A stretch of DNA of 33,230 nt from Bacteroidales bacterium (GTDB lineage: Bacteria > Bacteroidota > Bacteroidia > Bacteroidales > JAEINX01): assembly GCA_016342645.1 (NCBI GenBank), contig JAEINX010000040.1, positions 1 to 33,230 on the forward strand, read 5' to 3'. A program made the translations under genes and the position numbers. This document shows, one piece after another, positions 4,853 to 28,680 of this stretch. The notes under the pieces were generated by a model. That model ran no database searches. It was given only the letters and a program-made list of their open reading frames with translations, and was not told the origin of the DNA. Positions within the stretch are counted from its first letter, which is position 1. Each line of letters starts with the position of its first letter.

Positions 4853-4856
4853 TTCT

Positions 4857-6258: not shown

Positions 6259-6277
6259 TATCTCCTTTATACATCAT

Positions 6278-9469
<3,192 letters not shown>

Positions 9470-11845
9470 TTATTCAATGATAATTTCGTCTGCAAAAATC
9501 CATGCCTTATTTCCTGCAGCAGAATGCTTTTGAGGACAATTTCCAATATTTTTTGCAATAATTTTAATATATTTTGCTTCGATTTTTTCATTCAAATCTA
9601 TCACAAAATCTTCAATAAATGCCATTTCTTTCATTGGTGAAATATCGTTTTCGATTTTTCCTATGCTTTTAAAGTTTTTACCGTCGTCAGAAATAAAGTA
9701 TTCCACTGAAGCCGGAAGAAATATCCATTTTCTTTGGATTTGCAGAAAACTACAAGAAATTTTGCTAAGCACCGAAGAGCTTTTAAGATCAATTACAGCA
9801 ATTAAATCATCTCCCTGAAATCCCTGCCAGCAATTATCATCGTGATTTAGGCTACCATTAACTCCATCAAGGAGGCTGTTTTCACCCTGTGCTTTATATT
9901 TAAAACTGTATTTATTTTTTAGTTCAAGATTTTTTCCTAATCCCTTATGAATAGATATTGTTTTTTCAGAAATTTTTTCAACTAATTTTCCATCCTTAAA
10001 AAAACCTGCTTTAATATTTGTAGTCGAATCGATATCAAAAGTTTTTGAATAAAGCAAGGAATTAACATCGGGATCAGAACCGTCGGTTGTGTAGTGAATT
10101 TCGGGTTTGTAAATTTCACTTTCAAGGCAAGCAGATACTTTTCCGGAAGTATCGGTAATAGTTTTTATATCTATTTCAAATGAACCCTCGCAATAGTTAA
10201 CATTTAATTTTTCTAGTCTTTTAAAATGATTATTTAATCGTTTAATAAATCTTTCCCAGTTTTGTCTTTTCTTTGGTGTCCAAGCTACCTCAGCCAAAGC
10301 TATCATTCTCGGGAAAGCCATATACTCGGCATGTTCGAGAGTTGATATATATTCGGTCCAAATATTACCCTGTACTCCAAGGATATGTTTTTGTTCTTCA
10401 TCATTCAAAACAGGTGGTGTAGGATCGAAAGAATATACTTTTTTTAGCGAAGTCAAACCACCGATTGCTTTAGGTTGAAAATTAGGATCGGCCTGATAAT
10501 AATCAAAATAACAATGTGATGTTGGTGTCATAATTACATCATGCCCTTGCTGTGCCGCTTCTATTCCACCATCAAGGCCTCGCCATGACATTACAGTAGC
10601 TTCAGGTGCAAGTCCACCGTCAAGAATTTCGTCCCACCCGATTAGCTTTTTATTTTTTGAATTAAGAAATTTTTCTATTCTTTTAATAAAATAACTTTGT
10701 AATTCTTCTTCATTTTGAAGTCCTTCGTCTTTAATTCTTTTCTGGCATTTTTTACAGGCTTTCCATCTTGTTTTGTCGACTTCGTCTCCACCGATGTGAA
10801 TATAATCAGAAGGGAAAAGTTCGGCGACTTCGCTTAAAACATTTTCTAAAAACTCAAAAGTTTTTTCGTTTCCGGCACATAAAACATCAATATTTGGCCA
10901 ATAGCTACCTGTTTGCACTTCCATTTTTTTTCCGCGACACGATAATTCAGGGAAGGCTGCAAAAATTTCGCTGCTATGCCCCGGCATTTCTATTTCGGGA
11001 ATAATTTCAATGTTTCTTTCTTTTGCAAACTCAATGATTTCTTTGATGTCTTCTTGTGTATAAAATCCACCATAAGTCGCTTTTTCGCCGGGTTTTCCAA
11101 GTTCACGATTTCTCCATGCTTGATCTTCATGATCGACTCTCCATGCACAAATATCAGTTAGCTCAGGATATTTTTTAATTTCAATTCGCCAACCGTTGTC
11201 GTCTGTCAGATGCCAATGAAAAACATTCATTTTATACATTGCCATCAAATCAATAAATTTCTTAATAAATTCTTTAGGAAAAAAATGCCGTGATACATCA
11301 AGATGCATTCCACGGTAAGAATATTGCGGTTTGTCGTAAATACGAAGACATGGAATTTTCCAGTCTATTCCTTGTTCTTCATTTTTTTTATCAAGAACTT
11401 CATTTGGCAAGAGTTGTAAAAGCGATTGAATACCATAGAATACTCCTGAAGGTTCATTAGATTGTATGGTGATCTTTGTAAGGTCAACTTGTAATTTATA
11501 TCCTTCATCACCAAGCTTATTATCAGAAAGATTTGAGGAAAGAATCATTACATTATCAATTGATTTCGCTTCTGAAATATCGGAAACACTTATGTTGAAA
11601 TCTGTTGCATTATTAATGATTTTTGCAAGATATTCGCCGAGTTTTTGCATTTCCGCATTTCCATCTTCAGTTAGAATGGCCGTTTCTGAATTTAATTCAA
11701 ATTCAAACTCACCCTCCCATACCGACATTCTATCAGGACACGGAATAATATTTATTTGATGAATCTTTTTTGAATTATTACATGAAAACAACGACATCGC
11801 TGCGATAATAATAATAATTTTAATTTTTGTGCTAAGTTTTTTCAC
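9470..11845 (-). CDS. GH20 beta-N-acetylhexosaminidase lipoprotein
   Basis: It removes terminal GlcNAc or GalNAc from glycans by substrate-assisted catalysis. The 791-residue protein has a lipoprotein signal peptide (lipobox ending at C22, AAMSLFSC), so it is anchored to a membrane. A GH20 N-terminal domain (about 30-165) precedes the TIM barrel (about 170-520), which has YRGMHLDVSRHFFP, FHWHLTDDNGWR and the catalytic pair D354-E355 in HIGGDEVDKT. After the barrel come a chitobiase-type C-terminal domain (about 565-640, with YTTDGSDP) and a discoidin-like/F5-8C-type carbohydrate-binding domain (about 650-791). The gene is second in the minus-strand operon, between the esterase (17-base gap) and the GH2 beta-galactosidase. 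That pairing fits sequential removal of Gal and GlcNAc from LacNAc-type glycans. Confidence 0.93.
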   Translation of the reverse strand: MKKLSTKIKIIIIIAAMSLFSCNNSKKIHQINIIPCPDRMSVWEGEFEFELNSETAILTEDGNAEMQKLGEYLAKIINNATDFNISVSDISEAKSIDNVMILSSNLSDNKLGDEGYKLQVDLTKITIQSNEPSGVFYGIQSLLQLLPNEVLDKKNEEQGIDWKIPCLRIYDKPQYSYRGMHLDVSRHFFPKEFIKKFIDLMAMYKMNVFHWHLTDDNGWRIEIKKYPELTDICAWRVDHEDQAWRNRELGKPGEKATYGGFYTQEDIKEIIEFAKERNIEIIPEIEMPGHSSEIFAAFPELSCRGKKMEVQTGSYWPNIDVLCAGNEKTFEFLENVLSEVAELFPSDYIHIGGDEVDKTRWKACKKCQKRIKDEGLQNEEELQSYFIKRIEKFLNSKNKKLIGWDEILDGGLAPEATVMSWRGLDGGIEAAQQGHDVIMTPTSHCYFDYYQADPNFQPKAIGGLTSLKKVYSFDPTPPVLNDEEQKHILGVQGNIWTEYISTLEHAEYMAFPRMIALAEVAWTPKKRQNWERFIKRLNNHFKRLEKLNVNYCEGSFEIDIKTITDTSGKVSACLESEIYKPEIHYTTDGSDPDVNSLLYSKTFDIDSTTNIKAGFFKDGKLVEKISEKTISIHKGLGKNLELKNKYSFKYKAQGENSLLDGVNGSLNHDDNCWQGFQGDDLIAVIDLKSSSVLSKISCSFLQIQRKWIFLPASVEYFISDDGKNFKSIGKIENDISPMKEMAFIEDFVIDLNEKIEAKYIKIIAKNIGNCPQKHSAAGNKAWIFADEIIIE

Positions 11846-11862
11846 AATTCTTATGTTAGATT

Positions 11863-12603
11863 TTAAATGATTTCCTTTATTTCGGGAAGAATGATTTTAA
11901 ATATTGCCTGAGCAATCATTGCTTGTCCTTTTGAATTTGGGTGGCAGCCGTCAACAAGCAATTTTTCGATGTTTTGTCCTTTTTCTATTATATTTTGCCA
12001 AATGGAGTAATTATCAACAAAAAGAAGCTTTTCTTCAAGAGCAATTTTTTGACAAACCTCAACGTAATTTTGCAATAAAAAATTTGGTCCATTGCTTAAA
12101 TACGGTTCATAATCATAATCGAAAAAATGACCCAAGGGGGGAGGTGTCATCAATATTGGTTGAATGCCTTTATTTTGAAGTTTTTTAATAATTGCTCTGA
12201 TATTTTGTTCGTATTCAAAAGTACTCAATTGAGTATCTTCACCTTCGGAAAAAATCCAGGCATCATTAGTACCATACATTATAGTCACAAAATCGGGATT
12301 AAGATTTATAACTTCATTAATCCTGTTTAAAGCAAAATCACTTTTCTCGCCCGGTAACCCTAAATTAAACATTGTGCTGTTAATGTCTTTATTGTTAAGC
12401 AATTTACTTAATTTCTCAGGAAAAGTATTATACTTGGAAACACCACAGCATACTCCATCTGTAATTGAATCACCAAGGCAAGCTATAGTAACTGATTTTT
12501 TGTTTTTCTTAATATCCATACATCCATTAATAATAACCAAAAAAAACAATAAAAGTAATTTTAAAAAAGATTTGTTTCTTAAATATGTTTTTAAAGTGAA
12601 CAT
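11863..12603 (-). CDS. GDSL/SGNH-family esterase lipoprotein
   Basis: SGNH hydrolases of this kind remove acetyl or other acyl groups from carbohydrates or lipids. The 246-residue protein has a lipoprotein signal (hydrophobic stretch, C28 in VIINGC). SGNH block I is CLGDSITDG with nucleophile S46, block II has the glycine in LGLPGEKS, block III has the asparagine in YGTNDAW (N113), and block V gives D218 and H221 in LVDGCHPNSKG. All catalytic residues are present. It is the first gene of the operon with GH20 and GH2, which suggests deacetylation of a substituted glycan before exo-glycosidases act (inference). The exact acyl substrate cannot be read from the sequence. Confidence 0.87.
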   Translation of the reverse strand: MFTLKTYLRNKSFLKLLLLFFLVIINGCMDIKKNKKSVTIACLGDSITDGVCCGVSKYNTFPEKLSKLLNNKDINSTMFNLGLPGEKSDFALNRINEVINLNPDFVTIMYGTNDAWIFSEGEDTQLSTFEYEQNIRAIIKKLQNKGIQPILMTPPPLGHFFDYDYEPYLSNGPNFLLQNYVEVCQKIALEEKLLFVDNYSIWQNIIEKGQNIEKLLVDGCHPNSKGQAMIAQAIFKIILPEIKEII

Positions 12604-12932: not shown

Positions 12933-14462
12933 ATGAAAAGGAAACCACATCTTAGTTTTTGGCAAATATGGAATATGAGCTTTGGCTTCTTGGGGATTCA
13001 ATTTGGCTTTGCTCTACAAAATGCAAATGTCAGCCGAATATTTGAAACTCTTGGTGCAAAAGTTGATGAAATACCGATCTTATGGATAGCTGCACCCGTA
13101 ACGGGTTTAATTATGCAGCCGATAATTGGCCACATGAGCGATAAAACATGGGGGAGATTAGGCCGTCGCCGCCCATACTTTTTAGTAGGTGCAATTCTTG
13201 CTTCATTGGCTTTAATAATTATGCCAAATTCTCCTTTTTTATGGGTAGCTGCCGGTATGTTATGGATAATGGATGCTTCAATAAATATTTCCATGGAGCC
13301 TTTCCGTGCGTTTGTTGGAGATATGTTGCCTTCCGAACAACGAACCAAAGGCTTTGCAATGCAAAGTTTTTTTATTGGAACAGGTGCAGTTGTTGCCTCA
13401 GCTCTTCCTTATATTATGACAAACTGGTTTGGAATTGCCAATACCGCTCCTGAAGGTGAAATTCCACCTTCGGTTAGGTTTTCCTTTTACATTGGAGCTG
13501 CGGTATTCTTATTAGCTGTACTATGGACTGTTATCAAATCGAAGGAGTATTCTCCCGAACAACTTGAAGAATTCAACGAAACAGAGAATCAAGAAAAAAA
13601 TGGTAATAAATCCAATTATACCGAAGAACCTCTTCCATATAAAAGATTTCTTAAGAGTAGTTTTTTCTGGATCATTGGCGGATTGGTTTTAAGCTATTTA
13701 ATATATTTTTATAAACTCGAAGCTGAATTATATATTCTTACGGTGGGATGCTTTGCTTTTGGAATAATTCAACTAATAACAGGATTATTTACAAAAAGCG
13801 GAAAAACGAAAAATGGTTTGGTTATAGTTATAAACGATTTATTTAAAATGCCGAAAACAATGGCACAACTGGCAATTGTTCAGTTTTTTTCATGGTTTGC
13901 GCTTTTTGCTATGTGGATATACACAACATCTGCTGTAACATCCCATGTTTATGGGACAGATGACACTTCTTCCGTTTTATATAATACCGGTGCTGATTGG
14001 GTGGGAATATTATTTGCTGTTTATAACGGTTTTGCGGCGATAGTTGCATTTTTATTGCCTGTTTTAGCAAAAGTAACAAACAGGAAAATCACACACATGA
14101 TTTCTTTAATTGCCGGAGGTCTCGGCTTGATCTCTATTTATTTCTTTTCAGACCCAAATCTTCTCATAATTTCGATGTTTGGAGTAGGCTTGGCCTGGGC
14201 AAGTATTTTATCAATGCCTTATGCCATTTTAACAGGTTCGCTGCCAATCCATAAATTAGGAACTTATATGGGTATTTTTAATTTTTTTATTGTAATTCCT
14301 CAAATTCTGGCGGCAAGTCTTCTCGGGTTTTTTACAAAACATCTGTTTAACGATCAGGCAATTTATGCATTGGTGCTTGGAGGTGCTTCAATGTTTGTAG
14401 GTGCAGTTATGGTGTTGTTTGTAAAAGATGTTGATGCTCCCTCAAAAAAGGCTAAGGGCTAA
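12933..14462 (+). CDS. MFS transporter, SLC45/GPH-like (probable maltose/glucoside carrier)
   Basis: This inner-membrane cation-coupled sugar carrier has 509 residues and 12 hydrophobic segments. The cytoplasmic loop 2-3 motif is [17 protein letters not shown] (66-82), typical of plant sucrose carriers and SLC45-type proteins and of the bacterial maltose transporters found in Bacteroidota and Shewanella maltodextrin loci. A hydrophilic loop at about 200-230 separates the halves. The C-terminal charged tail is [12 protein letters not shown]. It is the plus-strand gene next to the alpha-amylase and starch-binding genes, which supports maltose or short maltodextrin import after periplasmic digestion. 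Substrate assignment is inference from family and context. It is convergent with the downstream GH13 gene. Confidence 0.88.
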
Positions 14463-14572: not shown

Positions 14573-17413
14573 TTACTCCTTGTTCAATATTAATTTATGA
14601 ACCTCTGAAAAATCTCCGATTTGAATTATACAAAAATAAAGTCCGGATTTTACTTTTGAATTATTAATACTCATTGCATCCCATATAAAAGAATGAGAGC
14701 CGGGATATAATTTTGAATCTGTTATTGCTTTAACTTCTTCTCCGAGTAAATTCAAAATACGAATTGAAACTTGATTTGTTTTCGATAAATTAAAATCAAT
14801 ATTAAAATTATTATTTGAAGGATTAGGATAAATATTGCCGATAAGATTTAAATCCGGTTTGGAATAATCATCATCTATACCTGTACCAATATCCGGAGTC
14901 GCAAGTTTTTTATCAGTATAAATTCTGTATTCACCGGGTTGAAGTTGAACAGATTGAGTTGTGTTTGTAACATTTAAAGAATCGCCTGAAAAATAATCAT
15001 ACCATTTGCCTGTATGATAAAAATCAGGTAAAATAGTTCCTTCAATTACATTGAAATTCCCAATAACAATAACGCTCATCTCCGAATTATAGATTCTAAT
15101 TTTCTTTAATTCACCGTTCACAGATAAATTAAAATTAGTACTTTCGAATGCATCATTATTTATTCTGAGATCAATTAAGCTTGAATAAACATCATAAAGA
15201 TGTTTCCTTCTGAAGTCAGTATAATAATCCCAACGAATTGGTTTTTCGCCTAAGCGTCCGTTAAAATTAATTGAATAATCATAGCCCATTTCTTCAAACT
15301 GCCAGATCATTTTCGGGCCGGGAATCGTAAAGAAAAAGCAAGCATTCAGTTCAATACGCTTTAGTGCAGTTGTTGTATCTTTAATTGAATAATCTCCTGA
15401 AGAATTTCCCCATGTATAAAGCCTGTTAGGGATTCTGTCTTCATCGTGGCTTTCCATATATCCGACAACATTTGGGTTATTCCAATTTCTTTCTTTATAA
15501 GAAATCCATGAAAAATCAGATTTATTGTTTGAAAACCAACCGCATGCTGAATTGTAGTAACTATAAGTAATGTTTCCCCAAAGAAGAATATTATAATTTG
15601 CGAGAACTTTTTCTTCCGAATTATCAGCAAGATGCTCAAAAATCACATAGGCATTCTGATTTACTTCCCAAATTTCATCAGACATCCTTTTTAACAATGC
15701 AATTCTATCTGCATCATAAGAACCGCCCCATGGATCACTTGAACCTTTAATGTTATTTCCAAATCCTTTGGTAAAATCAAACCTGAAGCCATCAATTTTA
15801 TATTCGCTCATCCAATAATGATTAATACTATCAACAAGAGCCTGAGTTGCCTCACTTTCATGATTAAAATCGTTTCCCCACTGAGCATCGGGATTAGTAA
15901 AATTATGATTTACATTATACCATGGGTTTTCAGATGTAGGCTTATCTCCATCAAAATACATCTGAACAAAGGGAGATTGGTCATAAGAATGATTTAAAAC
16001 TAAGTCTATTAAAACAGCAATTCCTCGACTATGGCATTCATCAACAAATTTCTTTAAATCATTTTTTGGCCCGTAATATTTATCCGGTGCAAAATAAAAT
16101 GAAGGATTATATCCCCAGCTCAAATTTCCTTCAAATTCATTTATTGGCATCAATTCAATTGCATTTACTCCTAAACGCTCTAAGTATCCGATGGTATCAA
16201 TCAAGGATTGATAAGAATGTTTTGAAGTAAAATCCCTGATCAGCAATTCATAAATTATCAGGTCAGTATTTTTAGCGGGTACAAAATTCGTTGTTTCCCA
16301 CTGAAATTCTTCCTGATTAGTTTGTAAAACAGCCGCAATTCCTTCTGTTTTACCAATGGGATATTCAATAAGATTTGGATAAGTAATATTGGAAATATAT
16401 TTATCGTTCCACGGATCACTTATTTTATCGGTATATGGATCAGCAATTTTAATTTCACCATCAATATAATATTGAAAAATATATTCTTTCCCCGGAACAA
16501 GATTGGTAATTTCAAGCCAGAACCTATCATTTTCAGGTGTAATTTTCATATAGTACGCCGAATCTATTTGCCAGTCATTAAAATCTCCTATCACATAAAT
16601 AAATTCTTTGTAAGGAGCATAAATAGAGAGAACAACTGTTGATTCATCAATGTAATTAATTCCATCACGAACACCTTCGGGCAGAGCTTCAATAGTAACC
16701 GGCCTCCTAACATGATAATAAAAAGAGTCGGCTACCGATTCATTTGCTGTTGAAGCAATTGCTTTAACAAAATATTTACCGTAATCGGTAGCAAATAGAG
16801 AATCTGTAAAAGATGTTCCTTCCACTTCCTTAACTAATACTTCATCGACATAAAGTGAAATTGATGTAGCTTCGTTTGCATAGATTTCAACAGGAAGAGT
16901 ATCGTTAAGTGATAAAATAACATTAAACTGTTCGGGATTAATAATATTTATATTCAACCCTGATTCATAAACATCGACAAAGATGTCTCCTCCGGTTTCA
17001 GTTTTTCCCTCGAGATAACTACCTCCTACAGCAACATCACTTCTAAAAACCAATGCTATTTGTAAAATTTGTTCGCTATCGGGAACACCATAATATTCGC
17101 GAATACTTGGTGAAATATTTAATTGGTAAAGATCTTGTCCAATTTTTTCCAGTTTAGTTTCATCAGTATTTTCTCCCCAGCCGGTTTTCACATATTTCCA
17201 ATCCGAACCTGATGAACTATTATTTGTAATTACCCCCGTATGAGCATAAACATCTCCATCATAGCCTGCCAATCCTCCGCTTCCGAGGGCAGCATTGAAA
17301 GTAATAAGCACCGGTAAGTTTGTAAGTGGAACCTCGGGTTCGGTAGTTACTAATTGCCCAAAAGAAATATTAAATATTGCTGTAAGAATTAGTATTATAA
17401 ATGATTTTTTCAT
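14573..17413 (-). CDS. T9SS-secreted GH13 alpha-amylase
   Basis: This extracellular amylase cleaves alpha-1,4-glucans. I place the start at 17413 (MKKSFIILILTAIFNISFGQ, a clear signal peptide) rather than at an in-frame ATG 25 codons upstream, giving 946 residues. From the N-terminus there is a 130-residue beta-sandwich also found in the neighbouring binding protein, then a linker beta-domain. A CBM48/E-set-like domain follows (about 250-340, with VIGDFNDWQ). The GH13 barrel has region I LIDLVLNH, region II GFRFDF (nucleophile D546), region III VIFEHL (acid/base E593) and region IV SHDEDR (D657). The last ~85 residues (IYPNPSNN ... SGLYFCIIQIG ... LILNKE) are a type A T9SS sorting domain, so the protein crosses the outer membrane. 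An intrinsic terminator lies upstream. Confidence 0.92.
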   Translation of the reverse strand: MKKSFIILILTAIFNISFGQLVTTEPEVPLTNLPVLITFNAALGSGGLAGYDGDVYAHTGVITNNSSSGSDWKYVKTGWGENTDETKLEKIGQDLYQLNISPSIREYYGVPDSEQILQIALVFRSDVAVGGSYLEGKTETGGDIFVDVYESGLNINIINPEQFNVILSLNDTLPVEIYANEATSISLYVDEVLVKEVEGTSFTDSLFATDYGKYFVKAIASTANESVADSFYYHVRRPVTIEALPEGVRDGINYIDESTVVLSIYAPYKEFIYVIGDFNDWQIDSAYYMKITPENDRFWLEITNLVPGKEYIFQYYIDGEIKIADPYTDKISDPWNDKYISNITYPNLIEYPIGKTEGIAAVLQTNQEEFQWETTNFVPAKNTDLIIYELLIRDFTSKHSYQSLIDTIGYLERLGVNAIELMPINEFEGNLSWGYNPSFYFAPDKYYGPKNDLKKFVDECHSRGIAVLIDLVLNHSYDQSPFVQMYFDGDKPTSENPWYNVNHNFTNPDAQWGNDFNHESEATQALVDSINHYWMSEYKIDGFRFDFTKGFGNNIKGSSDPWGGSYDADRIALLKRMSDEIWEVNQNAYVIFEHLADNSEEKVLANYNILLWGNITYSYYNSACGWFSNNKSDFSWISYKERNWNNPNVVGYMESHDEDRIPNRLYTWGNSSGDYSIKDTTTALKRIELNACFFFTIPGPKMIWQFEEMGYDYSINFNGRLGEKPIRWDYYTDFRRKHLYDVYSSLIDLRINNDAFESTNFNLSVNGELKKIRIYNSEMSVIVIGNFNVIEGTILPDFYHTGKWYDYFSGDSLNVTNTTQSVQLQPGEYRIYTDKKLATPDIGTGIDDDYSKPDLNLIGNIYPNPSNNNFNIDFNLSKTNQVSIRILNLLGEEVKAITDSKLYPGSHSFIWDAMSINNSKVKSGLYFCIIQIGDFSEVHKLILNKE

Positions 17414-17484
17414 TTTTTTTAAATTTAATTTTTTATATAAGTGCAAACAATTTAATTGTACAAGATTGATACCATTTTTGTAAA

Positions 17485-17516
17485 ACAAAAAAGACCCGAC
17501 AAAATGTCGGGTCTTA
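17485..17516 (-). terminator. Strong intrinsic terminator between binding-protein and amylase genes
   Basis: On the minus strand AAGACCCGACA and TGTCGGGTCTT form a perfect stem with a short T loop, followed by a T run (17485-17492). It lies 20 bases after the stop of the starch-binding protein gene and about 70 bases before the amylase start. It should end or attenuate the upstream transcript. Confidence 0.9.
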
Positions 17517-17535
17517 AGTTTTATTTAAAAAATAA

Positions 17536-19536
17536 TTATTTTTTAATAATCTTCATTGACCTCTGGCTATCATTGTTCTTAATAACAACAAAATAAATGC
17601 CTTGATGAATTTCTGAAGTACTAATATTAACATTATCGGAACCATAATTATTAACTGAAATAATTTTTTGTCCGACAATATTATAGATACTAATTTGCGA
17701 TATTTCGCTAACATTTTCTATAAATAGAATATCGTTAACCGGATTTGGGAAAATCCTGATGCCGGCTAATTCATTATCATCGATACCACTGGCACCAACT
17801 TTATAAGCAGAAATTGCTGTTTGAGGATCACCAATTGAAGGGTCACCGGCTGATGCGACAGGAATTACTTCAAAAACAAGATATTTATCCATATCTTCCT
17901 CAACAATTGAATAAGTTAAGGCAGTTGCACCGGAAATTTCAACTTTATCACTTCCATCAGGTTGTGTTGCAACATACCATTTGAATAATGAGGTTCCTTC
18001 AGGCTCACCATTAGGATCGAAATAAATGTAAGATCCGGTTGCATCATTTCCAGGTTCAAGAGTACCTTCAACTTTTACATTATAAGCATAAGGAGCGTAA
18101 GGAGTATCAATTATATTATAAGTACATTCGTAAAAATTTTGAACACCTCCTAAAGTATCTTGAATTTCAATTTTTCTGTTTGGCCCGCCTGATGGGAATT
18201 CCGAAGTATCCCAGTTACCATTAATTCGGAATTTAAAACTTTGTTCCATGCCAATTTTTTCTCGGCTAATAAATAGTTCAACAGTATAAATGTTCTCTCC
18301 ATTATTGAAGCAAACATCATAACCACCCCAACCATTAAAATCACCTGCAATATCAAGATAATCGGTATCAGGATTAAATTGTTCAGCAGTAATTTCATCA
18401 TTCATATTACATTCAAAAGTAACAGGAACGGTTGAAGTATTGTAGTTGTCATAAAAGTAATTAATCGTTTTTGATTCATGAGGTCCGAGAACTTTTCTGT
18501 TTGGTCCGCCACCGGGAAACTCAGATGTATCCCAGCTTGCATTTACTCTAAACTTGAAATCATAAACAACTCCTGCTTCAAGGCTTAAGTCAATTGAGTA
18601 GGTAGTGTCACCAAGGTCGGTTAAAGGCCCTGAGCCGGGATCGCCCCAACCATTAAACGAACCTGCAACATCGACAAAGTCATTATCGGGATCAAAATTG
18701 CCGAGTTCTACCTGATAACGCATATCAACAATCATAGTTGTAACAGAAGGAGGAATAATAGGATCATCGTTCCACCAAACATTAACTGTTACAGTTCCGC
18801 CAATTGCAGTAAAATTCCTTTGAATTTCTTCATAAGTTGCATCATTAATTCGGAATTTGTAAGTGTATCCCTGATCAACAACAAGTCCTTCATCAACTGT
18901 TGCATTATAAATCCCATCTGCTTCAAGGTCTAACAATTCAGTAGCACCCAGTCCATCAATATCAACATACAAAATATCGTTAATAGGGTCAAAGTGCTCC
19001 TCATTGATCATTTTAGTCATGTTGCAATTGACAACAAGAACAGGATCTCCAGATACAAAGCTTAATGGGATATTGAAATCACCACATCCGCCTTCAATAA
19101 AATCTTTACCTTCAGCATCCCAGGAACCATTATTAAATACAGCTGTAATTTTTGTAATTACAGTTCCTTCAGGAAAACCGTAAAAGTCGTAGGGGTTGTA
19201 AGTAATAGAATAAGTATCATCTCCATTTGCAGTCAAAATTGGAGACTGGCCATTAGCTCCCATTGCATCAAAGTCAACTCCATAATTACCCCAACCGTCA
19301 GGTTGTCCAAGTTCAAAGGCAGCAGAGTGCATATAAATTTCTTGAAGGCCTAACAAATCTTGTTTGCCATCCGGAGTACATGATAAAGTTGCATTAAAAG
19401 TTAACGTAATCTCGTCATAAGCTGTAGCATCTTCGGGTGAAATCGAAATTGCTGCAGGCATTTGGGCATAAATACTTGCTGAGAATAAAAAGACAGCAAC
19501 TAAAGATAAAATTTTTCTAAAAGTAAATTTTTTCAT
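17536..19536 (-). CDS. T9SS-secreted multi-module starch-binding-like protein
   Basis: No catalytic motif is present in these 666 residues. A signal peptide (1-24, ending SIYA) is followed by a beta-sandwich (about 27-160) similar to the N-terminus of the neighbouring amylase. Three tandem CBM-like modules follow (about 166-255, 266-365, 371-475). Modules 2 and 3 contain G-x-FNGWG, FKFR(V/I)N and WDTSEFP-x-GGPNRK; module 1 keeps only the scaffold. An Ig-like domain follows (about 485-580). The end (IRIFPNPVNDILFIENV ... GIYFVVIKNN ... MKIIKK) is a type A T9SS sorting domain, so the protein is delivered to the surface or medium. FNGW modules resemble CBM20/CBM48-type starch-binding folds. It sits where SusE/SusF usually would, divergent from susC, and is probably a glucan-capture protein. 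Confidence 0.82.
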   Translation of the reverse strand: MKKFTFRKILSLVAVFLFSASIYAQMPAAISISPEDATAYDEITLTFNATLSCTPDGKQDLLGLQEIYMHSAAFELGQPDGWGNYGVDFDAMGANGQSPILTANGDDTYSITYNPYDFYGFPEGTVITKITAVFNNGSWDAEGKDFIEGGCGDFNIPLSFVSGDPVLVVNCNMTKMINEEHFDPINDILYVDIDGLGATELLDLEADGIYNATVDEGLVVDQGYTYKFRINDATYEEIQRNFTAIGGTVTVNVWWNDDPIIPPSVTTMIVDMRYQVELGNFDPDNDFVDVAGSFNGWGDPGSGPLTDLGDTTYSIDLSLEAGVVYDFKFRVNASWDTSEFPGGGPNRKVLGPHESKTINYFYDNYNTSTVPVTFECNMNDEITAEQFNPDTDYLDIAGDFNGWGGYDVCFNNGENIYTVELFISREKIGMEQSFKFRINGNWDTSEFPSGGPNRKIEIQDTLGGVQNFYECTYNIIDTPYAPYAYNVKVEGTLEPGNDATGSYIYFDPNGEPEGTSLFKWYVATQPDGSDKVEISGATALTYSIVEEDMDKYLVFEVIPVASAGDPSIGDPQTAISAYKVGASGIDDNELAGIRIFPNPVNDILFIENVSEISQISIYNIVGQKIISVNNYGSDNVNISTSEIHQGIYFVVIKNNDSQRSMKIIKK
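18112..19041 (-). repeat. Three tandem ~100-residue binding-module repeats
   Basis: Within the binding-protein gene, protein residues about 166-255, 266-365 and 371-475 are copies of one module starting with F(D/N)P-x-x-D-x-(L/V)-x-(V/I)-x-G. Copies 2 and 3 are clearly close (FNGWG; WDTSEFP). Copy 1 is shorter and lacks FNGWG and the GGPNRK ending. Boundaries are approximate. Confidence 0.75.
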
Positions 19537-19697: not shown

Positions 19698-19711
19698 TGC
19701 AAACGATTGCA
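19698..19711. promoter_or_regulatory. LacI-family-type operator, site 1 (one mismatch)
   Basis: TGCAAACGATTGCA is a 14-bp near-palindrome centred on CG with one mismatched pair. The central CG and A/T-rich half-sites match operators of LacI/GalR-family sugar regulators. It lies about 162 bases upstream of the binding-protein start on the minus strand, so it could control that gene. Confidence 0.6.
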
Positions 19712-20136: not shown

Positions 20137-20148
20137 GCAAACGTTTGC
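20137..20148. promoter_or_regulatory. LacI-family-type operator, site 2 (perfect palindrome)
   Basis: GCAAACGTTTGC is a perfect 12-bp palindrome centred on CG, and shares its GCAAACG half with site 1. It lies about 140 bases upstream of susC. A further partial half-site (GCAATCG) occurs at 20125-20131. LacI-type regulators are known for maltodextrin loci of Flavobacteria, whereas Bacteroides uses SusR. No regulator gene is in this window. Confidence 0.7.
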
Positions 20149-20285: not shown

Positions 20286-23200
20286 ATGATAAAATTTTTA
20301 CACTTTAAAATGTTTGTCTTTTTAGCTTTAATTCTATTTGGGGTTTCTGCTTTAGGACAAAATGGAAAGATTGTTGGAACCGTATCTGATAAAGATTCGG
20401 GGGAAACGCTTCCAGGCGCCAACATTATGATTAAGGGGACAAATATCGGTATGTCAACTGATATTAATGGTGTATATTCCATTAATAATGCTCCCTTAGA
20501 TAAAATTACTTTAGTTTGTAGTTATGTTGGCTATCTTAATTTATCCAAAGATGTTACAATTGTTTCGGGGCAGACACTTACTGTTGATTTCGCACTACAG
20601 GAAGATAATATGATGCTTGACGAAATTGTTGTTATCGGTTTTGGAACAAAAAGAAAGCGTGACATAACTACTTCAATTTCAAAAGTAAAAGCTGAAGAAA
20701 TTGAAGGTATTCCTGTCGCTAACTTTGCTAAAAGCTTGCAAGGCCGTGCTCCGGGTGTTCAAGTTACTTCCGACAATGGTATTGCCGGCGGTGCCATAAC
20801 TATGAGAATTCGTGGAACATCCTCATTAAAAGCCAGCAGTGAGCCTCTTTATGTTGTCGATGGTGTACCGGTAATTACTGGTAGTTTTACCACTTCTGAT
20901 GGTTTCCCCGATAAATCTAATGCACTCTCTCAAATCAATCCTTCAGATATTGCTTCATATGAAATTCTAAAAGATGCTTCTGCTGCTGCAGTTTATGGCT
21001 CTCGGGGTACAAACGGTGTTGTTTTGATAACCACGAAAAGTGGTAGTCTGCAAAAAGGGAAAGGTTTGGAAAAAACCAATTTTTCCTTTAATTATTCTGC
21101 CGGTATTCTGGATGTTACAAATAGAATGAAAATTCTTGACGGGCCACAATATTTAGCTCTTTCACAAGAAGCTTATTGGAATTCTGTTCACACAGAAGAA
21201 ACTTCACCCTTATATAAACCGGAACTTTCGTATGATGAAGCTATGGCTAATTATTATAATCAATTACCTTATGGCATTACGGAAGAAATTGCAAAAAAAA
21301 CAAATACAAATTGGGTTGATGAAGCACTACGCCAAGGTTTTGTTCAAGAAGCCAATCTTTCAGCTTCCGGCGGAAACACAAAATCAACTTATTATCTTGG
21401 TGGAGGATACTTTGAGGAAAAAGGTATTTTGATCGATAATAAATTTAAAAGAATAAACGGACGTATAAATTTCACACATAATGCAACCGAAAAATTATCT
21501 TTTGGGGCTAATACAAGTATATCATATACAATTGATAACAGAGTACCTACAGGTTGGCAAGGGGGATTAGGAACTGCACAAAGCCGTTCCATACCAATAA
21601 TGCCAATTTACGATTCCACAGGAGGGTACTATGCTGCAAAAACCAGCGGGCATTCAAATATTAGAGCCGAAATTAATAATCTTGATTATGAAGCCAGAAT
21701 TTTGGGACTAATTAGCAATGTTTTCGGCCAATACAGAATTACACCTTTTTTATCTTTCAAAACCGAATTTGGATTAAATAACCTTGCATTAAGAGAGTCA
21801 AAATATGAAGGTTTGATAACACAAGAAGATCAGGTTGCACAAGACAGGAGAGTTCTGGTTAATAATTGGATAGCTACACAAAGCCTTAATTATTTTAAGA
21901 CTTTTAACGGTGTACACAATGTTACCGGTTTATTAAGTTATGTTGTTCAAGAAAGCAAGCAAAATGATGTTTGGTTTACGGGAAAAGATTTTCCAAGCCC
22001 ATCATTAACTAACCCAAACAGTGGGGCTATTAGAACTGCCGGTGACTTTGCAACTGCCTTTGGATATGCCTCTTATGTTGGAAGATTTACTTATAATTAT
22101 TCGGGGAAATATTATGCAACTTTCAGCCTCAGAGCTGATGGTTCTTCCCGATTTGGTAAAGACAATAAATGGGGATATTTCCCAGCCGGATCAATAGGAT
22201 GGTCTATCTCAGAAGAGAAATTTATGCAAAATGTTGATTTTCTTAGCTTCCTGAAATTGAGAATAAGTTATGGAATTACCGGAAACTCTGAAATTGATAA
22301 CTTTGGCTATTACGGATCATATAACACTAATGAACAATATTATGGCAGTGCGGGCATTACTCCAAATAATGTTGGAAATAAAGAACTCGGATGGGAAAAA
22401 ACTAGCCAAATTGATATTGGTATTGACTTTGGATTTTTTGATGGTAGAATTCATGGAGGAATGGATTACTATAATAAACTAACAAGCGACCTTTTAATTG
22501 AGGTAAATGTACCACAAACAAGCGGTTTTTCCAAAGCAATAACTAATATCGGTAAACTTGAAAATAAAGGTTTTGAGTTTTTTATTACTTCTTATAACTT
22601 AACGCAAGGAAAAATAAAATGGAATACTGATTTCAATATTAGTTATAATAAAAATGAAATAACTGAGCTTCCAAATAATCAAAAAATATCAGGTATTTCA
22701 CTTGGTGGTAATTACGGTAACAATTATGCTGTTGTAGGCTATCCGGCAGGGGTTTGGGAATTAGTTGATTTTGCGGGTGTTGATCCGGAAACAGGAAAAC
22801 CATTATTTATAAATCAGGAAACTGGTGAAGCAACTACCGAATACAATTATGATAGAGATGCAATTTTAACCGGTAATCCTTATCCCGAATGGATTGGAGG
22901 ACTAAACAATACAATTACTTATGATAATTTCGATTTAGGTATTTTATTTACATGGTCTTTAGGCCACAATGTTTATCGTGATGATGGAAAATTTTTAGAA
23001 GGCGGAAAAATCGGTGAAAACTGGAATCAAATGCAGATAATAGAAGACAGGTGGCAAAAACCCGGCGATATTACCGATATTCCAAAATTAATATATGATG
23101 GTACATATTCAACTTATAATACTACTCAATATCTTGACGATGCATCATATGTTAGGTTAAAAACTTTTCAACTCGGATATACTTTACCCAATAAAATTAC

Positions 23201-23393
23201 TCAAAAAATCCACATGACTAATGTAAGGTTTTACTTTAATGCAAACAATCTGCTCACATTTACAAAATACAAAGGTTGGGATCCTGAAGTAAACCGTGAT
23301 TATGGATCAAACAATAATGTTACGCAAGGTGTTACCTACCTTAGTCCTCCTCAGGTAAAATCGTTTACATTTGGAGTTAATATGAATTTTTAA
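20286..23393 (+). CDS. susC: SusC/RagA-family TonB-dependent outer-membrane transporter
   Basis: It imports alpha-gluco-oligosaccharides across the outer membrane with TonB energy, as a complex with the SusD lid. The 1035-residue protein has a signal peptide (about 1-24, ending ALGQ) and a carboxypeptidase-regulatory-like beta-sandwich (27-108, with GTVSDKDSGETLPGANI and CSYVGYLN). The SusC signature LDEIVVIGFGTKRKRDIT (111-128) follows. The plug domain (about 125-255) carries LQGRAPGVQV, IRGTSS, PLYVVDGVPV and YGSRGTNGVVLITTK. A 22-strand barrel ends in VNMNF, with terminal Phe. Starch specificity is inferred from the GH13 and GH31 neighbours. A second ATG at residue 9 would leave a shorter signal peptide. 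susD follows after 18 bases. Confidence 0.95.
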   Translation: MIKFLHFKMFVFLALILFGVSALGQNGKIVGTVSDKDSGETLPGANIMIKGTNIGMSTDINGVYSINNAPLDKITLVCSYVGYLNLSKDVTIVSGQTLTVDFALQEDNMMLDEIVVIGFGTKRKRDITTSISKVKAEEIEGIPVANFAKSLQGRAPGVQVTSDNGIAGGAITMRIRGTSSLKASSEPLYVVDGVPVITGSFTTSDGFPDKSNALSQINPSDIASYEILKDASAAAVYGSRGTNGVVLITTKSGSLQKGKGLEKTNFSFNYSAGILDVTNRMKILDGPQYLALSQEAYWNSVHTEETSPLYKPELSYDEAMANYYNQLPYGITEEIAKKTNTNWVDEALRQGFVQEANLSASGGNTKSTYYLGGGYFEEKGILIDNKFKRINGRINFTHNATEKLSFGANTSISYTIDNRVPTGWQGGLGTAQSRSIPIMPIYDSTGGYYAAKTSGHSNIRAEINNLDYEARILGLISNVFGQYRITPFLSFKTEFGLNNLALRESKYEGLITQEDQVAQDRRVLVNNWIATQSLNYFKTFNGVHNVTGLLSYVVQESKQNDVWFTGKDFPSPSLTNPNSGAIRTAGDFATAFGYASYVGRFTYNYSGKYYATFSLRADGSSRFGKDNKWGYFPAGSIGWSISEEKFMQNVDFLSFLKLRISYGITGNSEIDNFGYYGSYNTNEQYYGSAGITPNNVGNKELGWEKTSQIDIGIDFGFFDGRIHGGMDYYNKLTSDLLIEVNVPQTSGFSKAITNIGKLENKGFEFFITSYNLTQGKIKWNTDFNISYNKNEITELPNNQKISGISLGGNYGNNYAVVGYPAGVWELVDFAGVDPETGKPLFINQETGEATTEYNYDRDAILTGNPYPEWIGGLNNTITYDNFDLGILFTWSLGHNVYRDDGKFLEGGKIGENWNQMQIIEDRWQKPGDITDIPKLIYDGTYSTYNTTQYLDDASYVRLKTFQLGYTLPNKITQKIHMTNVRFYFNANNLLTFTKYKGWDPEVNRDYGSNNNVTQGVTYLSPPQVKSFTFGVNMNF

Positions 23394-23411: not shown

Positions 23412-24752
23412 ATGAAAAAGATATCATATAAATATTTATTAGTATTACTTTCAGGAGTATTGGTTTTTGTTTCTTGCCAGAAAGTTCTCGACCCTGAACC
23501 TGAAATGGTTCTTTCCGATCAAATCGCCCTAACAACAACAGTAGGTATCCAATCTGCCGTAATAGGTTGTTATCATAAAATGCAAAGTGGTGATTTGTAT
23601 GGTGGTAATGTTTGGGCAGGAGGTGAAATGCTTGCCAATAATGTAAAAAAATCCGGTGAAGGTAATATCGTATTCGAAGAAACACAATTGTTAGAAAAAA
23701 ACATGTCGGATGAAAACAGAATTGTTACCTCGTTATGGAGCAATTCTTTCTCTCTCATTCATTCTGTTAATAGTATTATTAAAGCTGTTCCCGAAGTAAC
23801 AGACCCTGATATTGAGAAAGAAAAAGATAGATTAATCGGCGAAGCTAAATTTATTCGCGGAATGATGTATTTCGATATGATTAGATATTATGGAAATCCG
23901 AATGACGGAAATGGTGTACCATTGCTTACGGAACCATTAACAATTTTTGACCAACCCGCACGGGCAACAACAGAAGCTGTTTACCAACAAGTAATAGCGG
24001 ATTTAACTGATGCAGCAAATTTACTTCCGGAAAATAATAACGATCGTGCTACGAAATGGGCTGCCAAAGCTATTTTATCAAGAGTTTATTTTTATAAAAA
24101 AGAATATCAAAATGCTGCTGATATTGCAACGGAAGTTATTAATAGTGGTAAATTTGCTCTTGTTGACAGTATGCCATTAAATTATGCTGAAGGCTCACCT
24201 TCCGAGGAAGTAATTTTTGCGATGATGAGTACCTTGACAGATGCAAGTTGCGGAACCTTAAACGGTTATTTTCGACAAGCTCAGGGTGCAAAATTCTCTC
24301 CATCCAACACTTTAGCCAAAATATTTTTATTCTCAGGCGGAATGGATGATAAAAGATATACCCAATTATTTAAAATTGTCAGCGATAAATTGTTCTGTGC
24401 CAAATTTGATCAAAGATATATGAATGTACCTATCATCAGGCTGGCAGAATTATATCTAACAAGAGGCGAATCTATTTTCAATGGTGCAACTGTTTCAGGA
24501 ATAACCGCTTTAGGCGATATTAATATTATCAGGTTAAGAGCGGGATTAACTCCTTTGGAAACCTTGAATTCCACAAGCATATATTATGAAAGAACTAAGG
24601 AACTTGCATTAGAAGGGGATAATTTCTTTAATCAAAAACGTCTTGAAAAAGATAAAATCTCAGATTATGAGCTTCCATGGAATAATCGAAAATTGCTTTA
24701 TTTAATTCCAAAAAGTGAGTTGGAAGTAAATCCAAATCTTGTTCAGAATTAA
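23412..24752 (+). CDS. susD: SusD/RagB-family glycan-binding surface lipoprotein
   Basis: It captures glucan at the cell surface and closes over SusC. The 446-residue protein has a lipoprotein signal peptide with C22 (LVFVSCQK). The all-helical TPR-like SusD core is recognisable from ATKWAAKAILSRVYFYKKEYQNAADIA (split here: ATKWAAKAILSR, then KEYQNAADIA), the C-terminal IRLAELYLTRGE, the ERTKELALEGDNFFNQKRL segment, and the usual ending LIPKSELEVNPNLVQN. It is shorter than B. thetaiotaomicron SusD (551 residues, established), so some surface loops are reduced. It is co-transcribed with susC and followed after about 15 bases by a strong terminator. Instead of susE/susF, the next gene lies on the opposite strand. 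Confidence 0.93.
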   Translation: MKKISYKYLLVLLSGVLVFVSCQKVLDPEPEMVLSDQIALTTTVGIQSAVIGCYHKMQSGDLYGGNVWAGGEMLANNVKKSGEGNIVFEETQLLEKNMSDENRIVTSLWSNSFSLIHSVNSIIKAVPEVTDPDIEKEKDRLIGEAKFIRGMMYFDMIRYYGNPNDGNGVPLLTEPLTIFDQPARATTEAVYQQVIADLTDAANLLPENNNDRATKWAAKAILSRVYFYKKEYQNAADIATEVINSGKFALVDSMPLNYAEGSPSEEVIFAMMSTLTDASCGTLNGYFRQAQGAKFSPSNTLAKIFLFSGGMDDKRYTQLFKIVSDKLFCAKFDQRYMNVPIIRLAELYLTRGESIFNGATVSGITALGDINIIRLRAGLTPLETLNSTSIYYERTKELALEGDNFFNQKRLEKDKISDYELPWNNRKLLYLIPKSELEVNPNLVQN

Positions 24753-24765: not shown

Positions 24766-24799
24766 AAAAAAAAGACGGCTTTTTTGCCGTCTTTTTTTT
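24766..24799. terminator. Bidirectional intrinsic terminator after susD
   Basis: AAAGACGGC and GCCGTCTTT form a stem with a T loop, flanked by an A run before and a T run after, so it works on both strands. It ends susCD on the plus strand and the four-gene hydrolase operon on the minus strand (last stop at 24840). Confidence 0.92.
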
Positions 24800-24839: not shown

Positions 24840-26237
24840 TTATTGCTTTTCAAAAACAAAATACCCCCAAGGCCCAATCTCAATTTCTTCATTCGCTGAA
24901 AAATTTCTTTTATTACCTGAAAACACATCCTGATAATTTCCTGTAAAACTTTCCACTGATAAAACTACATTTTGTTCTTCACCCGTAAAATTAAAAATTG
25001 CAAATATTTTATCACCGTCTTTTTCTCTTGTAAAGGCAAAAATGGCTTCATCGTTTGATGTTGGAATTCTTATCATTTTCCCACCATAAGAACCATTCCA
25101 TAAGGCTTTATTATTTTTTTTAAGAGTCAGAAGTTTTTTATAAAAATCATTAAGCTGAAATTTATCCCAGTCAATTTGATCTTTTTCAAAAAACTCAAGT
25201 CTTCGATTGAATGCTGCTTCTTGTCCGCTATAAATAAGTGGCATTCCGGGAATTGTTGCTGAAAATGCAGCAAAAGCCAAGGCTCCGTCTCCCATTCTTT
25301 CATATTCGGTTCCATTCCATGAATTTTCATCATGGTTTGAAGTAAAATTCATACGGTATGCATCTTCCATAAATAGTGAGTCGTTTTCGACAAAATATGC
25401 AGCAATATCATTGGAATTTTTTTCACCTTTTGCAACATCGTTTAAAATATGATGAAGATCCCATGCATAGGACATATCGTAAGCTTCTTTGTGATGAGGG
25501 GGTTCTTCGGCTTCGGCAAGCATAAAAACAGGCTTGATCTGATCAAGTTCCTTCCTTGCTTCATTCCAAAAATCAAGGGGAACCATACCTGCCACATCGC
25601 AACGATAACCATCAATATCTGTTTCTACAACCCAGAATTTCAATGCATCTATCATATGTCTCCTCATTTCTTTGTTATCATAATTTAAATCAACAACATC
25701 GGTCCAGTCAAAAGGTGAAACAAAATTTCCGGCTGAGTCTTTTGTGTACCAATCGGGATGATCTTCAATCATTTTATTGTCCCATGCACTATGGTTTGCT
25801 ACCCAATCTATAATAACATGCAATCCAAGCTCGTGCGCTTTTCCAACAAGTTCTTTAAAATCTTTCATTGTACCGAATTCGGGATTGACTGCCATGTAAT
25901 CTTTTATAGAATAATAACTTCCAAGAGTTCCTTTCCGGTTTTTCTCTCCAATCGGTTGAATTGGCATTAGCCAAATCATATCAACACCCATTTGTTTTAG
26001 TCGCGGTAAATGTTTTTCGAAAGCTTTTAAAGTACCTTCGGGAGTATATTGACGAATATTTACTTCGTATATGTTGGTGTTTTTACTCCATTCAGGATGA
26101 ATCAGTTTCTTAGTTGTTTGTTTTTTTTCTTTCATCTTTTTATTTTCGTTATTGCAGGAAGTTTGCAAAAGTATAATAAATAATATCAGGATGATTGGAA
26201 AAATTGTTAAACAAGAAATTTTACTAAATTTTTTCAT
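24840..26237 (-). CDS. GH13 alpha-amylase-family lipoprotein
   Basis: This is a 465-residue lipoprotein (signal with C28 in LLQTSC). After a short charged linker, the GH13 barrel starts at NIYEVNIRQYTPEGT (55-69). Region I is IDWVANHS (about 143-150), region II is DGYRCDVAG (nucleophile D214), region III is MLAEAEE (acid/base E242) and region IV is TSNHDENS (D301). A C-terminal beta-domain (about 380-465) ends the protein, and there is no CBM. All catalytic residues are present. It is last in the hydrolase operon, 10 bases after the GH31 gene. It could be the SusG analogue (surface amylase lipoprotein) or face the periplasm; the sequence after the Cys (NNENKK) does not decide this. Substrate is alpha-1,4-glucan or maltodextrin by family. 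Confidence 0.9.
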   Translation of the reverse strand: MKKFSKISCLTIFPIILILFIILLQTSCNNENKKMKEKKQTTKKLIHPEWSKNTNIYEVNIRQYTPEGTLKAFEKHLPRLKQMGVDMIWLMPIQPIGEKNRKGTLGSYYSIKDYMAVNPEFGTMKDFKELVGKAHELGLHVIIDWVANHSAWDNKMIEDHPDWYTKDSAGNFVSPFDWTDVVDLNYDNKEMRRHMIDALKFWVVETDIDGYRCDVAGMVPLDFWNEARKELDQIKPVFMLAEAEEPPHHKEAYDMSYAWDLHHILNDVAKGEKNSNDIAAYFVENDSLFMEDAYRMNFTSNHDENSWNGTEYERMGDGALAFAAFSATIPGMPLIYSGQEAAFNRRLEFFEKDQIDWDKFQLNDFYKKLLTLKKNNKALWNGSYGGKMIRIPTSNDEAIFAFTREKDGDKIFAIFNFTGEEQNVVLSVESFTGNYQDVFSGNKRNFSANEEIEIGPWGYFVFEKQ

Positions 26238-26247: not shown

Positions 26248-28680
26248 TTAGAATTTGATTTGAATTTTGTTTTCTATATTTTCAATGATAAAATATTTTA
26301 CAGCTATATTCCGGGTTTGTTTATAAATTTGGTTCCCGGGATATGAATTTTCGATTTTACAATTTACAAAACTATTATTTACGAGCATCCGTTTTTTAGA
26401 ATTCTCAAATTTTATTAAAATAATTTTCAAAAACTTAAATTTACTATCAAAGAAACCTTCTTTTTGGCCAAAAGTAATTTGTTTTTCTTCAGGTGAAAAC
26501 GAAATTTTTCTTTTATAAAAATCACCTTTTTCAAATTCATAAGTGCAACCGTCATCTTCATAATAAACAAATGAATTATCTGTTTTTCCATTAAAAATAA
26601 AAACCTGCAAAGTATCCGAAGGTTTCTCGCCAAGATTTTGAACAGGCGATTGAACAGGTATTATGCTGCTCTCTTTAATGAAAACAGGGAGTTCATTTTG
26701 TGGACAATCCACATAGATTTCACTATTTCCAGCTTGTAAATTGCCTGTTGAAATATCGTACCAATTATTTATAGGAAGATATACTTTTGTTATTTCCTTA
26801 TCGCTTTCAACCGGAATAATAAGAAAAGAAGGCCCGAATAAATATTGATTTTGATATTTATACCAAAAAACTTTTTCATCAAAAGTATTATCAATTGCAA
26901 GGCTGCGAGCAACGGGTAGTCCGGATTTATGTGCTTCGTAGAAAACAGAATAAATATAAGGCATTAAATTGTAGCGAAATTGAATATAATTTCTTGCAAT
27001 TTCTTCTGTTTCCTCCCCGAAAGCCCATGGTTCGGCGTCTTTCGAATTATAATGAGTATGCCCTCTGAAAAATGGAGAAAACGCCCCAATAGTTAACCAA
27101 CGAGTAAATAATTGTGCAGAAGGATCACCCATAAATCCTCCAACATCATAACCACAAAAAGGAATTCCACTTAAACCAAGGCTGTTAACCAATCTGACTC
27201 CGAGCATCATGTGCTCATTACTTGCAGTATTATCACCTGTCCAAATGGCTGTAAATCTTTGAAGTCCTGCAAATCCTGCACGTGTAAGTATTAAAGGGCG
27301 TTTTCCGTTTAAAAGCTTCTTGGTTCCTTCAAAAGTACTTCTTGCCATTTCCAGACCATAAACATTTTTTGCTTGCAGGTAAGTTGCATTTTTTCCTTCC
27401 CAATCAAATTCAACCAAATAAGGAGTGGTTCCACCCCATGAAGCAATTTCATTCATATCATTCCAAAACCCATCTATTCCCAAATCAACATAATCCCTGA
27501 ATTTATTACCCCACCATTTTCTGGTTGTCGGATTTGTAAAATCCGGAAAATGACACCATCCCGGCCAGACTTGCGCTGTGTAAATTGTGTTGTCGGGATA
27601 TTTTATAAATAAATCCTTTTCTATACCCTCATTATAAGCATCGTAATTATTTTCAATTTTAATACCCGGATCAACAATCACAGTTGTGTGAAATCCCATT
27701 TCTTTTAATTCATTAAGCATTTTCTCAGGTGTAGGAAACCTTTCGGGATGCCATGTGAAAATTTTATAGGCATCCATATAATGAATATCAAGATAAATTA
27801 CATCGGCTGGAATTTTCTTCTCACGAAAGGTTTTTGCTACATTTAGAACCTCGCTATCAGGATAATAACTCCATCTACACTGCTGATAACCAAGGCTCCA
27901 GATTGGTGGCATTTGCATAAAACCGGTCAAAAATGAATACGATTTTAATATATCTGCAATATTATTATGATAGATAAAATAATAATCCATCTCGCCATCC
28001 TCTGCAGAAAAATATGAAAATCTATTGTTTGACGCTCCAAAGTTGAAATGGGTTTTATAGGAATTGTCAAGGAAAATACCGTAATTAAATTTATTATGAA
28101 TTCCGATATAAAATGGAATAGATGCATATAAAGGATCATCGTAAGCTCCGTGTCTGGGATTATCGGTGTTCCAGTTAGTATAAGCCGACCCCCGCCTGTC
28201 GAGATTACCGGTTTTTTCTCCTAATCCAATAAATTTTTCTTTAGGCTGCAGCTTTTTATAGGTTGTGACTTCCGTGCCTATCCATGAAGTACCAAACGCA
28301 GGATCATCTTCATTGATTAATTCCCTTTCAAGAGTTAAAAACTGAAAACGTACAGGATTTTTTGTTATTTTTAGAATTAAAGAATCTGTACATATTTCTA
28401 TATACTCCTCAAATTCATTAACTTTTGCGACGCACTTCTCCGGTTTGGCAATAACAGAATATGAAAAATCTTCGTTAAACTCTTTTAAAACAACTCTTAT
28501 CCTTAAAATATTAGGTGAAAAAACACTAATCCCTGCTTTTCCAAAATCAGTTACTATGTTTATGGTTTGTTCGTCTCTCGAAAAAGAAATCAAATTACCT
28601 AAACTTTTATTCATATTTTGCTGTGAATAAGAATTTGTTATCATTGAAAAAATGATCATTGAGAAAATTATTCTTTTCAT
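26248..28680 (-). CDS. GH31 alpha-glucosidase, secreted
   Basis: It releases glucose from the non-reducing ends of maltodextrins. The 810-residue protein has a signal peptide (about 1-19, ending NSYS) and no lipobox, so it is likely periplasmic. An N-terminal galactose-mutarotase-like sandwich (about 25-250, with FIGLGEKTGNLDRRG) precedes the GH31 barrel (about 255-600). The nucleophile is D408 in GFWNDMNE and the acid/base is D483 in WTGDNTAS, with GYQQCRWSYYP and FCGYDVGGF nearby. Proximal and distal C-terminal beta-domains follow. The gene is third in the minus-strand operon. It fills the role of the GH97 SusB in Bacteroides (inference). GH31 also includes alpha-xylosidases and transglycosidases, but the neighbours argue for alpha-glucosidase. 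Confidence 0.92.
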   Translation of the reverse strand: MKRIIFSMIIFSMITNSYSQQNMNKSLGNLISFSRDEQTINIVTDFGKAGISVFSPNILRIRVVLKEFNEDFSYSVIAKPEKCVAKVNEFEEYIEICTDSLILKITKNPVRFQFLTLERELINEDDPAFGTSWIGTEVTTYKKLQPKEKFIGLGEKTGNLDRRGSAYTNWNTDNPRHGAYDDPLYASIPFYIGIHNKFNYGIFLDNSYKTHFNFGASNNRFSYFSAEDGEMDYYFIYHNNIADILKSYSFLTGFMQMPPIWSLGYQQCRWSYYPDSEVLNVAKTFREKKIPADVIYLDIHYMDAYKIFTWHPERFPTPEKMLNELKEMGFHTTVIVDPGIKIENNYDAYNEGIEKDLFIKYPDNTIYTAQVWPGWCHFPDFTNPTTRKWWGNKFRDYVDLGIDGFWNDMNEIASWGGTTPYLVEFDWEGKNATYLQAKNVYGLEMARSTFEGTKKLLNGKRPLILTRAGFAGLQRFTAIWTGDNTASNEHMMLGVRLVNSLGLSGIPFCGYDVGGFMGDPSAQLFTRWLTIGAFSPFFRGHTHYNSKDAEPWAFGEETEEIARNYIQFRYNLMPYIYSVFYEAHKSGLPVARSLAIDNTFDEKVFWYKYQNQYLFGPSFLIIPVESDKEITKVYLPINNWYDISTGNLQAGNSEIYVDCPQNELPVFIKESSIIPVQSPVQNLGEKPSDTLQVFIFNGKTDNSFVYYEDDGCTYEFEKGDFYKRKISFSPEEKQITFGQKEGFFDSKFKFLKIILIKFENSKKRMLVNNSFVNCKIENSYPGNQIYKQTRNIAVKYFIIENIENKIQIKF

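Follow-up and report, generated by a model that had tools for sequence, protein, structure and literature searches.

The window analyzed here, a whole stretch of 33,230 nucleotides of Bacteroidales DNA, carries an alpha-glucan locus in which, to judge from its sequence, the starch-capture role of SusE and SusF has probably moved to a cargo protein of the type IX secretion system (T9SS). For the capture of glycans by Bacteroidota, the model case is that of starch, which is held by the lipoproteins SusE and SusF. The proposed T9SS-delivered counterpart is P0002, a putative noncatalytic binder of 666 amino acids (positions 17536 to 19536, minus strand), a role suggested by its domain composition and its clade-wide conservation. 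P0002 would be exported by Sec and T9SS and would hold starch or maltooligosaccharides outside the cell through its CBM98-like module together with two X25/CBM20-like modules that are intact and in each of which a pair of Trp residues is conserved; a third X25 module is degenerate, and an Ig domain would serve as a spacer. The glucan held by P0002 would be cleaved by the amylase P0001, also a T9SS cargo; the products would be imported by SusC with a short SusD, and the remaining GH13 and GH31 enzymes would complete the breakdown. A LacI protein encoded on another contig, P0019, would control the binder-amylase unit and susCD via GCAAACGNTTGC operators, and also a second T9SS unit, in which P0020 would be a binder with four X25 modules and P0018 a GH57-like protein. 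More tentatively, we propose that a Bacteroidales lineage may have rebuilt its starch system, with dedicated surface alpha-glucan binding and cutting entrusted to T9SS cargos that belong to a single LacI regulon and with SusE/F-type modules shifted from lipoproteins to a T9SS-exported scaffold.

The order of domains in P0002 was a CBM98-like module, a degenerate X25 module, two further X25 modules, an AIR9-type Ig domain and a sorting domain, thus more than the three modules counted in an earlier interpretation of this DNA (the sequence-only reading). The N terminus, MKKFTFRKILSLVAVFLFSASIYAQ, appeared by eye to be a type I signal peptide with no lipobox Cys. The N-terminal CBM98-like (DUF4961-like) module (19054 to 19458; this and all the following domains on the minus strand) matched the CBM98-like modules of amylases with 96% probability in hhalign; PF16328 scored 20.9 bits, under its cut-off, and the A1 profile gave no direct match to PDB sequences at an E value of ≤1. 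CBM98 is a binder of maltooligosaccharides (PMC11633381). The degenerate module (18751 to 19041), which has no paired Trp, was detected with an X25 profile (E value, 2e-5) and, in the AF2 model, repeated the strand-helix-strand pattern. Module 1 (18439 to 18741; W297 and W335 invariant) reached 25.3 bits with the X25 family PF22058, for which the cut-off is 27, so that both the X25 and the DUF4961 scores of P0002 are below the Pfam cut-offs. Module 2 (18124 to 18429; W403 and W442 invariant) was recognized with the X25 profile and by alignments. The Ig spacer (17842 to 18081) matched PF23197 with 32.0 bits, and the type A sorting domain (17539 to 17754; 17545 to 17754 in the genome-wide match) was above the curated cut-offs of both PF18962 (46.3 bits; cut-off, 27) and TIGR04183 (49.5 bits; cut-off, 23).

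Our own X25 profile, which includes P0002 itself, detected X25 modules in all of the binders of the class I genomes described below. Independent support for X25 in P0002 came from the SusE profile (2e-4), from hhalign (90% over 46 columns) and from the fold. Thus, the full AF2 model was of low confidence (pLDDT, 62), but one X25 module (module 1) modeled alone gave a pLDDT of 86, and Foldseek found it to resemble the CBM20 domains of cyclodextrin glycosyltransferases (CGTases) and STBD1 as well as the AMPK glycogen-binding domain. Foldseek with the full-length protein rendered largely Ig-like noise, with BoGH13ASus (8dl2) and CGTases as the only informative matches. No Pfam match to PF14292 or PF16411 was obtained in P0002. 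Taken together, P0002 is predicted to carry tandem X25/CBM20-like modules, the module type of SusE and SusF, with a CBM98-like module at its N terminus; SusE has two copies of X25 and SusF has three (PMC9112005). The sequence-only reading had proposed a binder with modules different from those of SusE/F, which the X25 evidence from P0002 (profile, hhalign and fold) shows to be wrong: the modules are of the same kind, and it is the delivery system that is another. P0002, a putative binder of starch or maltooligosaccharides, has the conserved Trp pairs W297/W335 and W403/W442.

The genome (4.17 Mb, 198 contigs, 93.5% complete) contained no match to SusE (PF14292) or SusF_SusE (PF16411) in a Pfam profile search of its whole length, and a more sensitive SusE profile specific to the order also found no SusE in it. 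These searches thus gave no sign of a concealed or divergent SusE and confirm the absence of susE and susF claimed from the window. The module part of the order-specific profile matched only two proteins of this genome, both T9SS proteins, namely, P0020 (1.7e-6) and P0002 (2e-4). The absence is unlikely to be due to an assembly gap, because all eight class I genomes are without SusE. By itself it is not new, since marine Flavobacteriia are known to have alpha-glucan polysaccharide utilization loci (PULs) of a kind for which no SusE is noted (PMC11093988).

Across the order, 295 genomes were sampled; for the comparison of loci, membership of the class I clade was set by SusC alone in 79 genomes that have a P0001-type amylase. 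In the SusC tree, the SusC of the window fell in a clade with 100/100 support, alongside members from several other families, and SusE was absent from the locus in 7/7 members. A T9SS binder with CBM98 and X25 was present in all eight class I genomes but in only 2 of the 71 other amylase-bearing genomes, whereas SusE was found in none of the 8 and in 44 of the 71 (Fisher p values of about 2e-9 for the binder and 9e-4 for SusE, class I versus the rest, with kinship not corrected for). The class I pattern may reflect one event only. The two types occur in G320 and G235, which are genomes of the same genus, so that the swap between SusE and the binder may be recent or mobile.

Other sus loci of the order kept SusE beside SusD, and several also had T9SS binders. 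T9SS binder and SusE occurred together in the related loci L093 to L097, L099 and L103, with binder-amylase T9SS pairs alongside SusE in L093 to L095 and L103, and genome G255 had a window-type binder with SusE elsewhere in the genome. This coexistence rules out strict mutual exclusion, and T9SS binders are therefore not obligatory replacements of SusE. The CBM98-bearing binders of SusE-bearing loci had no X25, whereas all class I binders had two or three copies, a contrast that is not absolute, as L096, L097, L099 and L119 combine X25-bearing T9SS proteins with SusE-like genes. We also observed small T9SS proteins made up solely of two or three X25-like modules (L096:8662-9633, L099:7114-8082 and L106:2336-3928), two of which adjoin SusE. 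Locus L098 encodes, between SusC and the amylase, a T9SS cargo of 1,101 amino acids (3463 to 6768) with SusF_SusE (PF16411), CBM48-like and CBM9 modules, which by its predicted domains is an independent case of SusF-type modules on a T9SS protein. To go by the title of Foley 2018 (a reference in PMC11093988), SusE of Bacteroides thetaiotaomicron has a further action that does not depend on starch binding, a role that P0002 need not replace. The hybrid Sus/T9SS system proposed in the sequence-only reading thus stands in part: the genome has no SusE/F, the sus locus has a T9SS-tagged putative glucan binder, and the swap is conserved in 8/8 class I genomes, whereas binder modules unlike those of SusE/F and an obligatory replacement do not hold.

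P0001 (14573 to 17413, minus strand, in an open reading frame of 14573 to 17488; the Met at 17413 agrees with the start given earlier) is a putative secreted alpha-amylase, GH13_47 like and BoSusG like, as indicated by Pfam/NCBIfam and by phmmer matches to 8dge and to a further alpha-amylase, 8xx9. Its modules, all on the minus strand, were an N-terminal CBM98-like module (16961 to 17356; aligned with residues 33 to 124 of BoGH13ASus, 8dge, i-E value 7e-8), a CBM48-like module (16433 to 16663; PF02922 at 19.5 bits, slightly below the cut-off, and aligned with 8dge and 8xx9), the GH13 catalytic domain (15278 to 16210; PF00128, E value 5e-22) and a type A sorting domain (14588 to 14833), above the cut-offs of Por_Secre_tail PF18962 (44.9 bits; cut-off, 27) and TIGR04183 (33.3 bits; cut-off, 23). 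By eye, the N terminus was a type I signal peptide without a lipobox, and the catalytic motifs DGFRFDFTKG, VIFEHLAD and MESHDED were present. The phmmer match to 8dge had an E value of 4e-119 over 274 to 859. Since the alignment with BoGH13ASus/BoSusG (8dge and 8dl1) spans nearly all of P0001 upstream of the tail, CBM98 module included, P0001 is the predicted SusG counterpart, of the GH13_47 type like BoSusG. A CBM98-like module was also seen at the N terminus of a GH31-like protein of another locus (L049:5549-8392).

The sorting domains place the claim that both P0001 and P0002 end as T9SS cargos on firm ground, and T9SS sortase PorU was present in the genome in two full-length copies above the cut-off. 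Nothing special attaches to the tails themselves, as the genome contains about 150 T9SS sorting-tail cargos and homologues of the catalytic part of P0001 (E value of ≤1e-100) were found in 148 of the 295 genomes. The GH13_47 homologues carried T9SS tails in most of the loci that were read, with or without SusE; a T9SS-tagged GH13_47 amylase by itself is common, occurring in half of the 295 genomes. Delivery of P0002 and P0001 to the cell surface and their anchoring there are predicted. Type A sorting domains are classically tied to surface attachment, as in Porphyromonas gingivalis. This, and the retention of a noncatalytic multimodule protein in 8/8 class I genomes, precisely where there is no SusE, argue against the rather unlikely reading that both cargos are soluble, the amylase digesting starch off the cell and the binder concentrating the enzyme on granules, with uptake of the products by the short SusD alone, so that the surface role of SusE/F is left unfilled. 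In its favor, T9-secreted amylase activity of Flavobacterium johnsoniae is measured in the culture supernatant (PMC11885536), so that surface retention of a T9SS amylase is not given, and ChiA is fully secreted (PMC5127042); marine open-type SusD alpha-glucan PULs are described with few genes, and it is for the looped-SusD type that a SusE-like protein is named (PMC11093988).

SusC of the class I clade (20286 to 23393, plus strand; TIGR04056, 810.6 bits) is followed by a short SusD of 446 amino acids (23412 to 24752, plus strand; PF14322 and PF07980), with a lipobox present by eye. As had been read from the sequence, susD is followed at once by a terminator and an opposite-strand gene: a hairpin with a 14-bp stem (24766 to 24799; local fold z = -3.1) and a convergent GH13 gene (24840 to 26237, minus strand) with a SusG_C-like end and, by eye, a lipoprotein signal. 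Profile searches identified, further along the minus strand, a GH31 alpha-glucosidase-like enzyme (26248 to 28680), a GH13 enzyme with an AMPK1_CBM/CBM48-like module and a lipoprotein signal by eye (28721 to 31147) and a GH13 cyclomaltodextrinase-like enzyme (31190 to 33061). On the other side, a sugar transporter of the MFS type (12933 to 14462, plus strand) has a close homologue within related sus loci. The hairpin search also found a strong, bidirectional terminator-like hairpin with an 11-bp stem (17491 to 17515) between the binder and amylase genes, which would let the cell make more binder than amylase. Adjoining the starch locus, the window contains another glycan cluster (4857 to 12603; by eye), with a GH2-like beta-galactosidase, a GH20-like hexosaminidase, an SGNH-like hydrolase and a fucose-permease-like MFS gene.

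A motif search revealed two operator-like sites between the binder gene and susC, namely, the near-palindrome GCAAACGATTGC (19699 to 19710), 163 bp upstream of P0002, and the palindrome GCAAACGTTTGC (20137 to 20148), 149 bp upstream of susC. The exact GCAAACGNTTGC occurred in five places in the 4.17-Mb genome (expected, about 0.7 to 1.3; reversed control, 0): these two, a further pair on contig C65 and a single copy within a uvrA-like gene (C36:3153). The last, being within a gene, was set aside as chance; the four others were intergenic, all in the window locus and the C65 locus. The C65 pair flanks the LacI gene P0019, in a region (about 47.2 to 55.8 kb; L037:5195-13799) in which the genes on either side of P0019 encode P0020, of 832 amino acids, with four X25/CBM20-like modules (X25 Pfam, 77.7 bits, which passes the cut-off) and a T9SS tail, and P0018, of 1,576 amino acids, with a weak GH57 match and a T9SS tail. 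The only other genes with the intergenic operator of the window were thus two T9SS cargos and LacI; SusE/F homologues co-regulated from elsewhere in the genome, which would have refuted the sequence-only reading, were not found. P0019 was 50% identical to the LacI located within the related locus L031, and in many relatives the motif (≤1 mismatch) lay about 100 to 215 bp upstream of the binder or susC. The sharing of GCAAACGNTTGC suggests that both loci belong to one regulon; the natural reading would be a single LacI regulon of four T9SS cargos and susCD, of which the C65 locus is probably the second part. It is improbable that P0002 is just an accessory starch-particle adhesin, one of the many T9SS-exported CBM proteins, with the loss of SusE reflecting only the history of the SusC clade: the numerous T9SS cargos and the binder-amylase pairs beside SusE would agree with this, but the operators common to the binder and susCD tie them together, and the X25 contrast between class I and SusE-bearing loci, with its four exceptions, also speaks against it.

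If the replacement of SusE/F by P0002 is true, what defines the surface-binder slot in a PUL would be the modules and not the anchoring, and PUL annotation via PF14292/PF16411 misses T9SS-borne binders; the class I clade makes SusCD uptake with nonlipoprotein binders testable. SusE and SusF of B. thetaiotaomicron, like P0002, have tandem X25-type modules (PMC9112005) and no catalytic domain and are encoded with SusC/D, whereas P0002 starts with a type I signal peptide, ends in a T9SS sorting domain, lacks both a lipobox and PF14292 and carries an extra CBM98-like module, and its gene is divergent from susC instead of downstream of susD. BoGH13ASus (BoSusG) of Bacteroides ovatus, a GH13_47 enzyme, shares with P0001 the order CBM98, CBM48 and GH13 but is an outer membrane-anchored enzyme (PMC11633381), whereas P0001 has a T9SS sorting domain instead. 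In the T9SS amylases and the chitin locus ChiA of F. johnsoniae, a T9SS-exported endo-enzyme feeds SusC/D-like importers (PMC11885536 and PMC5127042), as proposed here; the passages of these papers that were consulted describe no separate T9SS-exported starch binder of the P0002 make-up. Sas20 and Sca5 of the Ruminococcus bromii amylosome, like P0002, display tandem X25 on a noncatalytic extracellular starch binder (PMC9112005), although in a Firmicute with a sortase/cohesin system and no SusC/D. The marine Flavobacteriia PULs with open-type SusD are, like the window, SusC/D alpha-glucan loci of a type not noted for SusE, but they encode few enzymes and T9SS is not mentioned for them (PMC11093988). 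The repeated combination of an X25 binder on a T9SS cargo, a T9SS amylase and SusC/D, without SusE/F, was not described in the open-licence literature searched; its parts are known singly.
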